Assembly (NCBI RefSeq): GCF_000337195.1
Contig: NZ_AOID01000026.1
Span: 81,097 to 145,096, forward strand
Direction: 5' to 3'
From: Natrinema versiforme JCM 10478
GTDB taxonomy: Archaea > Halobacteriota > Halobacteria > Halobacteriales > Natrialbaceae
Length of the DNA stretch: 64,000 bases
The translations under genes and the position numbers were made by a program. The notes under the pieces were generated by a model. The model searched no databases. It saw nothing but the letters and a program-made list of their open reading frames with translations, and was not told the DNA's origin. This document shows positions 32,467-36,029 of the stretch, in pieces (position 1 is the first letter of the stretch; every line of letters starts with the position of its first letter).

Positions 32467-33579
32467 TCACACTCCGCGAGAGGACCGCGACAGGAGCCAG
32501 AACGCGACGGTTCCGAGGCCGAAGGCGACGCCGACGTTGCCTGCGAGGCCGACGACCCCGACCGCCGCGACGACCGCGAGCGAGCGACGGTCGTCGACGG
32601 GCGCGAACGCGGCGCGGCCGAGTTCGAGCGCCACGACGACGAGCAACACGCCCAGAATCGCCGTCGGGAAGGCCGCGAGCACGGCACCAGCGGCGACCAG
32701 CGCGAGCGCGAGGTAGCCGATCCCCAGCAGGACGTTCGCGCCGCCGGTTCGCGCGCCGAAGGCGTACTTCCCGGCGAGGCCGCCGCTGCCGTGACACATC
32801 GGTACCCCGCCGAGCGGGATCGCCGCGAGGCAGGTGACGCCCATGCTCTGCGAGAGGTCGTCCGGCGACACGTCCCGATCGTAGAGGTCGCCACAGAGCA
32901 GGGCGGTCGCGATCGCCGCGTTCCCGACCGTCATCCCCAACTGGGCGACGGTCCCCTCGAGCGCGGCGGCGCTGAGCGACGGCGAGCCGGCGGGAAAGAC
33001 CGCGAGGTCGGGGACGACCGGTGTCGGGACGCCGGCCGTCGCGACGGCCGCGACCCCGCCGAGTCCGAGCACGACGAGCACGCTCGCCTGCCGGTAGCCG
33101 ACGAGCGCCAGCAGGCCGACGACGGCCAGCCCGCCCGCCGCCATCGGGAGGTTGCCGAGCGAGAGGTCGACCGCCGCCTCGAGCAAGAGCAGGGCCACGG
33201 CGAGTTGCACCCCGCGGATGACCGGCTCGCCGACGACCCGCTCGAGTCGGCCGACGAGTCCGAGGCGACCGACGACGAGCAAGACGCCGCCGGCGAGCAG
33301 CCCCGCGGCGGCGAGTTCGGCGTAGGAGAGTGTGCCGACGATCGCCAGCCCGACAAGCGCCTTCATCGGCTCGACGGAGAGGGGCATCCCGTAGTACAGC
33401 CCCCAGACGATCTGGAAGACGCCGAAGCCGACCAGTACATGGGGCAGCGAGACGCTCGTCGTCGCGGCCAGCGCGACCAGAAGCGGCAACACCGTAACCG
33501 AATCACCTAGCGCACCCGTGAGTTCGCTCGGGGAGAACTCGAGGTCGGAATCCGTCGGTGACCGGAACGAGTACGCCAT
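32467..33579 (-). CDS. MOT1-type molybdate/sulfate transporter
   Basis: A 370-residue protein with about 10-11 membrane helices and the MOT1 signatures: SELTGALGDSVTVLPL (residues 18-33), GLYYGMPLSVEPMKAL near 60-75, and PLGGVPMCHGSGGLAGKYAFGARTGGANVL near 250-280. MOT1 proteins are SulP relatives without a STAS domain; plant and algal members carry molybdate with high affinity. Here it would import MoO4(2-) or sulfate. It is monocistronic, upstream of the PIN-like pair in the same direction. Confidence 0.85.
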   Translation of the reverse strand: MAYSFRSPTDSDLEFSPSELTGALGDSVTVLPLLVALAATTSVSLPHVLVGFGVFQIVWGLYYGMPLSVEPMKALVGLAIVGTLSYAELAAAGLLAGGVLLVVGRLGLVGRLERVVGEPVIRGVQLAVALLLLEAAVDLSLGNLPMAAGGLAVVGLLALVGYRQASVLVVLGLGGVAAVATAGVPTPVVPDLAVFPAGSPSLSAAALEGTVAQLGMTVGNAAIATALLCGDLYDRDVSPDDLSQSMGVTCLAAIPLGGVPMCHGSGGLAGKYAFGARTGGANVLLGIGYLALALVAAGAVLAAFPTAILGVLLVVVALELGRAAFAPVDDRRSLAVVAAVGVVGLAGNVGVAFGLGTVAFWLLSRSSRGV

Positions 33580-33733: not shown

Positions 33734-35359
33734 TTATCGCGTTACGGAGCCGCCGTCGCCGATCGTCTCCGCCCCCGAACCGCCGGTCGACACCGCTTCC
33801 GGATCGACGTCGTCGGCGGTTCGGGCCTCGGGGAGATCGTAGCCGCTCTCGGTGACGTAGCGCTCGAGTTGGGCGTTCAACTCGCCGGCCTGCTCGGTGA
33901 GGACGGTCGCGCTGCGAGCGACGTGTGAGAGAGCCTCGGCTTGGGCCGATGCCCGCCGAGCCGCCCTCGCGGAGGTGTCTGCCGTCTTCTCGCTCGTTTG
34001 GGCGGCGGACTCGACAAGGACGACGACCTCCTCGGTCGCCGAGGCCTGCTCTTCGGTCGCCGCCGAAATCTCTTGGACCCCGTCGTTCGTCTGCTCGGCG
34101 AGTTCGGCGATCCGTTCGAGGGAGGTAGCCGCCGCCTCGACGTCGGCGACGCTGTCCTCGATGCGGTCGCGGCTGGTCCGGACCTCGTCGGCCGCCGATA
34201 TCGCGCGCTCTTTGAGCCCCTCGAGTCGCTCCTCGACGGCCTGGACGGAGTCGTAGACCTCTTCGGAGAGGTTCTGGATCTCGTCGGCGACCGCGCCGAA
34301 CCCGTCGCCGCCACCGTCGCCGGTCCGCGTCGCCTCGATGTTGGCGTTGAGTGCCAGCATGTTCGTCTGTTCGGCGATGTCGCTGATCGACTCGACGAGT
34401 TCGTCGATCCGTTCGGCCTCGGCCTCGAGGGCCTCGATCTCCTCGAGGGTCCGTTCGGTTTCGGTATCGATCACGTCCATTCCCTCGATCGCGTCGTCGG
34501 CTGCCCGGCTCCCCTCGTGGCCGGCTCGGGCGGTCCGATCGGCGGTGTCGGCGACCTCGGAGGCCGTCGCGGCGATCTCCTCGATCGTCGTCGAGAACGA
34601 CTGCATCTCGGCCGCGACGGTCCGCAGTTGGTCGTTTTGGGTCTCGTTGTCGGAGACGACCTCGGTGAGTGCCTCGCTCGTGCGCTCGCCCTCCCGTTGG
34701 ACCGTTTCCATGCTGGTCTTGAGTTCGCGGCTGTAGGTGACGACCTCGCCGGAGAACGACTTCAGCGTCCCGAAGGTGTCCTCGAACTCCGCGAGCATGG
34801 TATTGGAGTTGTCCGCCAGTTCGTCGAGCGCGTCGTGGGTGCCGGGCCGGTCGAACCGCCGCGTGAGATCGCCCGCCGCGACCGTCCGCGTCGTCTCGGC
34901 GTGGGCCGCGACCGTGCTCTCGAGTTCGTCCAGCGAGCGATCCGTGTGTTCGCCCGCCGCCAACTGATCCCGGACTCCGGCGAGTGCCCTCTCGAGTCCC
35001 GCGAGTTCGTCGTCCCGGTCGGTCTCGAAGGCAGTGTCGTATGCGCCGTCCTCGAGGCGGACCGCTCGCTCGGTCACGTCGGCGATGGCCTCGCGGAGAT
35101 CGTCGCGCTGGCGCGGTGCAGTGCGGGCGTCCGAGGCGGCGGCGATCGCGGCCGCGGTTCCGACCGTGACGACGACACCGGCGACGCCGACGCCGATGAG
35201 CGCCGTCGTCGGACCGCCGAGCGCGACTGCGGTGACCGCGACGGCGACCAGTCCCACGAGCCCGATCGCGATCCCGAAGCCGAGCGGTCGCTCGGACTGG
35301 ATCGCCGACGGCAGCGGCGACGCGCCGTCCGCGTCCGCGGCGGCCCCGGCGTCAGTCAT
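33734..35359 (-). CDS. Methyl-accepting signal transducer with two membrane helices and no external sensor
   Basis: A 541-residue transducer. Two adjacent N-terminal helices (about residues 27-49 and 52-75) leave almost no extracellular domain. A HAMP-like region follows, then a long coiled coil with the conserved signalling hairpin SISDIAEQTNMLALNANIEATR and FGAVADEIQNLSEEV, and the C-terminal methylation-helix region. Without its own sensory domain it must receive a signal from a partner. The upstream H-NOX gene overlaps it by 8 bases and is the obvious candidate. Methyl-accepting proteins control CheA and the archaellum motor. Confidence 0.88.
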   Translation of the reverse strand: MTDAGAAADADGASPLPSAIQSERPLGFGIAIGLVGLVAVAVTAVALGGPTTALIGVGVAGVVVTVGTAAAIAAASDARTAPRQRDDLREAIADVTERAVRLEDGAYDTAFETDRDDELAGLERALAGVRDQLAAGEHTDRSLDELESTVAAHAETTRTVAAGDLTRRFDRPGTHDALDELADNSNTMLAEFEDTFGTLKSFSGEVVTYSRELKTSMETVQREGERTSEALTEVVSDNETQNDQLRTVAAEMQSFSTTIEEIAATASEVADTADRTARAGHEGSRAADDAIEGMDVIDTETERTLEEIEALEAEAERIDELVESISDIAEQTNMLALNANIEATRTGDGGGDGFGAVADEIQNLSEEVYDSVQAVEERLEGLKERAISAADEVRTSRDRIEDSVADVEAAATSLERIAELAEQTNDGVQEISAATEEQASATEEVVVLVESAAQTSEKTADTSARAARRASAQAEALSHVARSATVLTEQAGELNAQLERYVTESGYDLPEARTADDVDPEAVSTGGSGAETIGDGGSVTR

Positions 35360-36029
35360 CGGTTCCCCCGCGAGGCGCGTCGGCCGTTGATTCGGATTCG
35401 GCGTCGGTCTCGAATTCGAATCCGGACTGCTGCTCGGCGTCGGCTTCCGCCTCCGACCTCGAGTCCGCCGCGGCTCCCGATCGGGGAGCCGTCCGTCGGC
35501 GAATCTCGAACTGGCAGGCGTCGTCTCCCTCGTGCATACAGGTCTGTTCCTCGGCGACCAGTTCCTCGTCGAAGCGCTCGGCGACGCCCTGGATCGCCCC
35601 GCGGGCGACGTCACACAGCTTCCGGTCCGAGTCGTAGGTGATCCGCACCCGGTTCTCGTCGAGTCGTTCGGAGCGGATCCGCGGCGTCGTCAGCGTCGTC
35701 ATGTCCCGCGTCCGCAGCGACGTGTGGAACTGCTGAATGTTCGCGATGAGCTCTAATCCCTCCCACTCGTCGTCGATGTGGAGATCGTAGGTCTCGAGCA
35801 GCGCTGGGACGACCCACTTGCCGTACTGGGTCAGAATCGTCCGCGGGCTCTGGTCGGTGAGTTCGCCGGCGGTGCGGGCGATCTCGTAGACGTCGCCATC
35901 CGGATAGACGGTGACGGGGACGTAGACCTTCTCCTCGATGTCGGCTTCGTCTTGGACCGCGAGCCACGCGTCCTCGCCGTAGGTGTCGATGACGAACGCC
36001 TGTAGCGTCTTCAGAATTATTCCGTGCAT
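35352..36029 (-). CDS. H-NOX (haem-NO-binding) domain sensor
   Basis: A 225-residue protein beginning MHGIILKTLQAFVIDTYGEDAW, the typical H-NOX N-terminus. The proximal haem ligand is present as His102 (IQQFHTSLR) and the haem propionate motif YxSxR as Tyr132-Asp-Ser-Asp-Arg136, at the positions found in characterised H-NOX proteins. A CMHEGDDACQF segment follows near 164. The last 45 residues are an acidic, disordered tail. H-NOX proteins bind NO or O2 through haem and signal to a partner kinase, cyclase or chemotaxis protein. The stop overlaps the start of the methyl-accepting gene by 8 bases. Confidence 0.86.
   Translation of the reverse strand: MHGIILKTLQAFVIDTYGEDAWLAVQDEADIEEKVYVPVTVYPDGDVYEIARTAGELTDQSPRTILTQYGKWVVPALLETYDLHIDDEWEGLELIANIQQFHTSLRTRDMTTLTTPRIRSERLDENRVRITYDSDRKLCDVARGAIQGVAERFDEELVAEEQTCMHEGDDACQFEIRRRTAPRSGAAADSRSEAEADAEQQSGFEFETDAESESTADAPRGGTDD

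Follow-up and report, generated by a model that had tools for sequence, protein, structure and literature searches.

A haloarchaeal H-NOX gene overlapping that of its own methyl-accepting chemotaxis protein: a probable chemoreceptor in two polypeptides

In bacteria, H-NOX proteins are described as partners of a histidine kinase or diguanylate cyclase from their own operon, or as fused to methyl-accepting chemotaxis proteins (MCPs) (PMC9814294, PMC8738867), and an H-NOX domain driving an MCP is already known from the fused proteins. Stable O2 binding within the family has been attributed to a distal tyrosine (PMC8738867, PMC9814294). A second site of interest is the zinc site of Shewanella H-NOX, the ligands of which we took from PMC7108781. 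Our literature search on archaeal or haloarchaeal H-NOX found no description, and none was found of the form reported here, a split, overlapping, archaeal version of the H-NOX/MCP receptor that is associated with Che operons.

The window, by which we mean the whole 64,000-nucleotide stretch of Natrinema versiforme JCM 10478 DNA that was analysed, encodes a stand-alone H-NOX (haem-NO-binding) protein of 225 aa at positions 35352..36029; all window features given here lie on the minus strand. The assignment draws on Pfam (PF07700, HNOB; E 1.7e-33, 116 bits against a cut-off of 25.5), on a PDB sequence match and on the predicted fold. Residues 1-178 make up the haem domain and residues 179-225 an acidic, low-complexity tail, and Pfam also returned a V4R match in the protein (1e-9). 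The solved structures nearest in sequence are H-NOX proteins of Shewanella oneidensis, with 4u9b as the PDB match (3.7e-15). An AlphaFold2 model computed with 22 archaeal homologues (overall pLDDT 82, exceeding 90 in a large part of the core) had the same S. oneidensis entry, the Fe(II)-NO form, as its best Foldseek match (E 4e-15, TMt 0.88). The proximal haem ligand His102 (codon 35724..35726) and the haem-propionate motif YxSxR, formed by Tyr132, Ser134 and Arg136 (35622..35636), are both in place, as the earlier note had reported, and both recur in all 44 haem-competent haloarchaeal homologues.

Downstream lies the gene of a dedicated, membrane-anchored MCP of 541 aa (33734..35359; Pfam MCPsignal, E 8.8e-29, 101 bits against a cut-off of 34.6). 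The two genes overlap by exactly 8 nt (35352..35359), as the earlier note had it, in the sequence ATGACTGA, which combines the MCP start ATG with the H-NOX stop TGA. The mechanical MCP reading frame, of 626 aa, begins further upstream at 35614; we nevertheless place the start at the ATG at 35359, because the junction is conserved among pairs. RTGACTGA is found in 21 pairs from several genera, the window pair included, and two more pairs overlap by 4 nt. At none of the MCP-linked haloarchaeal H-NOX loci examined are the two proteins encoded in a single frame.

Two back-to-back transmembrane helices occupy MCP residues 25-77 (35129..35287) and enclose an external turn of about 5 residues, so that, as previously claimed, the protein lacks an external domain; hydropathy, an alignment of 19 partner MCPs and the AlphaFold2 model agree on this arrangement. 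In the model, helices 25-46 and 52-77 are followed by a long helical hairpin or coiled coil with its tip near residue 348, at modest confidence (overall pLDDT 64, about 50-66 in the membrane hairpin). The signalling tip (residues 330-345, EQTNMLALNANIEATR; 34325..34372) has a core, EQTN.LALNA.IEA, that is invariant or nearly so in the 19 partners. A Pfam scan of the window MCP at E 1e-3 gave no match to HAMP, and a HAMP-like A.GDL..R stretch is near-invariant in the same alignment. A two-helix transducer is also the architecture of haloarchaeal rhodopsin/Htr pairs. The partner MCPs of one genus, g19, have no transmembrane helices (L082:5537-6925, L084:5723-7111) and form a fully soluble H-NOX/MCP pair; the hairpin is therefore better read as an anchor than as a sensor, and as a dispensable one, because it has been lost in that genus.

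To place the pair in a wider context we surveyed 391 genomes of the class Halobacteria, 85 of which have an HNOB match (codes beginning with G, g, f and L are our labels for genomes, genera, families and loci, and C-codes denote contigs of the window genome). Haloarchaeal H-NOX proteins form two deep clades, with 44 rows in clade 1, the window protein included, and 71 in clade 2. In clade 1 the proximal His, YxSxR, both hinge glycines (Gly70 and Gly144) and three cysteines of a Shewanella-type zinc site (Cys139, Cys164 and Cys172, 35514..35615 in the window, where the fourth position is Glu161) are each present in 44 of 44. The proximal His is gone from all 71 clade 2 paralogues, with no His within 4 columns. 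In that second clade, also of stand-alone proteins, which comprises a member in the window genome (C45:2396-2935, also labelled L045:2396-2935) and 70 further loci, the His is mostly replaced by Tyr, YxSxR is kept (or has T for S), and the three zinc-site cysteines are usually present. Several of the loci examined, judged by eye, have the gene after a phosphoribosyl-pyrophosphate-synthase-like gene. Clade 2 proteins are possibly haem-free or Tyr-ligated sensors.

The earlier note had proposed comparing haloarchaeal genomes for co-occurrence of the two genes, and the linkage proved to be conserved. An MCP gene lies just downstream of 33 of the 44 clade 1 H-NOX genes, in 30 genomes from 5 families; 2 more H-NOX genes run off the contig, and for 9 no MCP gene was found nearby. 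Among clade 2 genes only 1 of 71 has an MCP gene in its vicinity, and that MCP gene (L083), 1.5 kb off with another gene between, was left out of the partner count. When 30 partner MCPs were placed in a tree with 36 other haloarchaeal MCPs, among them the best non-partner matches to the window MCP, a branch supported at 99 separated the partners from all the others. The 391 genomes hold 18 close homologues of the window MCP (>600 bits, the next match scoring 286), and every one of them has an H-NOX gene next to it. CheA is present in 30 of 30 pair genomes (Fisher p 0.0015 against the rest, uncorrected for kinship). With the linkage, the single MCP clade, the haem residues and the Che operons described below, the idea of a two-piece haem receptor, distinct from the one-piece fusions, is well supported.

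Several other arrangements of clade 1 genes were seen. Three genomes carry tandem H-NOX genes before a single MCP (L046:5200-6316, L048:4943-6119, L073:5316-6570), the copies falling in different sub-branches; they are perhaps a heterodimeric or two-range sensor. On a plasmid of Natrinema salinisoli (NZ_CP084470.1; L068:4826-6483, equal to L235), a clade 1 H-NOX gene overlaps a pyridoxamine-phosphate-oxidase-like gene by 4 nt and is also near genes for PAS-domain proteins, a possible further pairing of H-NOX with an effector. A truncated haemoglobin gene (PF01152) adjoins H-NOX in divergent orientation at all four loci of genus g43, and one seemingly lies beside the Che operon of G383 as well (L223:1856-2221; L064, L070, L072, L075; and, by sequence, L225:5788-6147). 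This neighbourhood hints at NO chemistry.

In three other families the pair sits within a complete Che operon. The order is H-NOX, MCP, CheW, CheY, CheA, a CheX/CheC-type gene, CheC and CheD in f4 (G078, G304, G244); CheY, CheA, CheC, H-NOX, H-NOX, MCP, CheW, CheC and CheD in f6 (G373, G383); and H-NOX (two in G276), MCP, CheW, CheY, CheA, CheC and CheD in f3 (G276, G182). Most of these genes were assigned by Pfam on one representative per family, the rest by position and sequence. The pair's MCP is the sole MCP of G276 and of G182; neither has CheR, which is absent from the three genomes of genus g73. Beyond the haloarchaea, a further family within the phylum (f16) has stand-alone H-NOX that forms a lineage of its own and shares about 24% identity with the window protein. 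Of 9 non-haloarchaeal loci with good coverage, 7 have H-NOX surrounded by Che genes (L280, L281, L282, L284-L287), and the fullest f16 locus (L280:668-7152) reads MCP, CheW, CheY, CheX, CheB, H-NOX, CheA. Its MCP likewise starts with a membrane block, and no external sensor was recognised in it. Che operons have thus probably taken up stand-alone H-NOX on at least two occasions, once in haloarchaea and once in f16. In four bacterial plasmid loci inspected, no MCP gene follows H-NOX, the next gene being ATP-binding, GGDEF, response regulator or hypothetical.

The window genome encodes 4 MCPs and one CheA. Its only Che cluster is on a contig (C13) other than that of the H-NOX/MCP pair and reads CheW, CheW, CheY, CheB, CheA (1161 aa), CheC, CheC, CheD, CheR. 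A type IV pilus-like operon (secretion ATPase (PilB), T2SSF and DUF7288), not to be confused with ArlIJ, converges on this cluster. G143, G292, G160, G308 and G005 are organised in the same way, and the other genomes examined are not. Seen from the pair-bearing genomes of genera g1, g13 and g14, a cheYBACCDR cluster convergent with the pilus-like operon was present in 6 of 6 examined (L221/L240, on C13 of the window genome; L245-L248; L253). In Natrialba magadii a cheYBACCDR cluster is separate from the che/fla/cheF locus (PMC3403918).

How the pair should be read depends on whether its linkage, its ligand and its output could be explained otherwise. Within Natrialbaceae the linkage taken alone could be plain synteny, since the whole metabolic neighbourhood of the pair (MOT1, DUF7384, AIRS, ThiDN) is equally conserved. 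An MFS_MOT1 gene (molybdate-transporter family; 32467..33579, Pfam 6.7e-47), which we do not claim as part of the receptor, directly follows the window MCP; in 18 pair loci of Natrialbaceae it has this position and strand, and in none outside the family. We therefore placed weight on families with differing flanks, in which the pair is kept nonetheless; together with the dedicated MCP clade, the preserved stop/start overlap and the position of the genes in Che operons, this makes it very improbable that the two are neighbours without a joint function. An O2 (aerotaxis) receptor resembling the clostridial H-NOX/MCP fusions would have in its favour the sensor family and effector class that it shares with the fused O2-binding receptors (PMC8738867), but the distal Tyr to which the literature links stable O2 binding (PMC8738867, PMC9814294) is missing from the haloarchaeal proteins. 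In Thermoanaerobacter/Caldanaerobacter (Tt) H-NOX, O2 is stabilised by Tyr140; the corresponding residue is Val141 in the window protein (codon 35607..35609) and Val, Leu, Ile, Phe or Trp across clade 1, with Tyr in 0 of 44, and the positions of Tt Trp9 and Asn74 are occupied by Leu and Val (the Tt reference sequence was verified against PDB 1u4h). We regard an O2 receptor as quite improbable. Because the Tyr is absent from all 44 homologues, NO is the likelier ligand, and of the "NO or O2" receptor of the earlier note the NO part is favoured and the O2 part is weakened. Copper nitrite reductase (TIGR02376), a likely source of NO, showed no clear enrichment in pair-bearing genomes (about 20 of 32, counted by eye, versus 208 of 391). 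H-NOX might also act mainly as a redox sensor, with oxidation of the three zinc-site cysteines switching the MCP and haem playing a secondary part. Such a mechanism is known for haem-free Vibrio cholerae H-NOX (PMC7108781), and the cysteines are retained not only throughout clade 1 but also in 62-63 of the 71 paralogues that have no haem ligand. Against it, the haem ligands are just as invariant in the MCP-linked clade, and the fourth zinc position is Glu161, not His or Gln, in 33 of 33 MCP-linked proteins; we consider it improbable.

The output is a separate matter. A receptor for NO or O2 could serve archaellar taxis, with the signal running from CheA through CheY and CheF to the archaellum motor, and the earlier note had the pair feeding the archaellar pathway. 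The window genome does encode archaellins (on C25) and ArlHIJ (on C24), any swimming response would have to pass through its one CheA cluster, and archaellins are present in 7 of 10 tested pair-bearing genomes. Yet no PF04283 match, the mark of CheF, was found in the window genome (G000), and its single CheA cluster adjoins the PilB/T2SSF operon. Where two CheAs exist, in the f4 and f6 genomes G078, G304, G244, G373 and G383, the second lies beside CheF and archaellins and is not the one linked to H-NOX. Moreover, 3 of the 10 tested pair-bearing genomes (G276, G182, G031) have neither archaellin nor CheF. In these lineages the H-NOX module is thus a chemosensory system in its own right. The archaellar claim is thus not supported as it was made, and we hold this route to be possible but on the doubtful side. 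The position of the Che cluster beside the pilus-like operon instead renders a pilus-linked output plausible in the window organism.

We consider it likely, from the sequence evidence, that the products of the two genes are the halves of a single chemoreceptor, in which a probably NO-sensing H-NOX acts on its own MCP and, through it, on CheA/CheW and CheY. The soluble H-NOX would bind haem by way of His102 and YxSxR, with NO as the probable signal, and would be co-translated with its MCP and make physical contact with it. The sensor-less two-helix hairpin would keep the MCP at the membrane, on its inner side. NO binding would then alter the surface of H-NOX, and H-NOX would shift the signalling state of the MCP and, with it, how active the CheA/CheW complex and CheY are, the presumed direction of the signal. 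The CheA in this pathway would be the one encoded in the H-NOX/MCP operon in several families, and the output is probably a process, for example the working of type IV pili, that replaces or accompanies swimming by archaella. More tentatively, and with somewhat less than even confidence, we suggest that archaea have a haem-gated (NO-sensing) chemosensory system with a non-swimming output, in which H-NOX and a sensor-less MCP drive their own CheA, CheY, CheC and CheD towards, for example, type IV pili. Che operons would have gained H-NOX at least twice, and in g73 the pair would be the only chemoreceptor, in cells that have no archaella, CheF or CheR.

A two-gene H-NOX/MCP system has practical value, as ligand binding, docking and kinase control can be tested with separate proteins, unlike in the fused membrane receptors, and the soluble g19 pair should be useful for reconstitution. 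Dedicated Che operons in archaea without archaellin and CheF raise the question of what a chemotaxis kinase targets when nothing swims. If our reading is true, the pair is a candidate NO-responsive signalling route for haloarchaea, many of which have copper nitrite reductase.

Among described systems, the H-NOX/MCP of Caldanaerobacter (Thermoanaerobacter) tengcongensis (Tt/Ct; PDB 1u4h/1u55) shares with the window pair the combination of H-NOX and MCP and the membrane-bound chemoreceptor class. It is, however, a single bacterial polypeptide with the O2-binding Tyr140, whereas the window system consists of two overlapping archaeal genes, has Val141 in place of that Tyr, and has a Cys zinc site that is absent from the Tt sequence. 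Shewanella oneidensis SO2144 H-NOX and Vibrio cholerae H-NOX/HnoK are, like the window protein, stand-alone H-NOX of the NO type encoded beside an effector gene; they have the same three zinc-site cysteines and provide the closest solved fold. They act on a histidine kinase or diguanylate cyclase rather than on an MCP, and their zinc ligand His161 corresponds to Glu161 in the window H-NOX. Haloarchaeal rhodopsin/Htr pairs (for example the rhodopsin homologues beside MCP genes at Nmag_2879-2882) likewise have a separate sensor gene beside a dedicated MCP transducer (PMC3403918), but their sensor is a membrane rhodopsin, unrelated to the soluble haem gas sensor found here. The HemAT globin-coupled aerotaxis transducers of haloarchaea also feed a haem sensor into an MCP domain (PMC3403918); unlike in the window pair, that sensor has a globin fold and shares a single chain with the MCP. 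Finally, the Natrialbaceae cheYBACCDR operon with its long CheA (Nmag_3145-3151) has the same gene order as the Che cluster of the window genome. In Natrialbaceae the H-NOX/MCP pair lies outside this operon, whereas in other families it lies inside a smaller Che operon.
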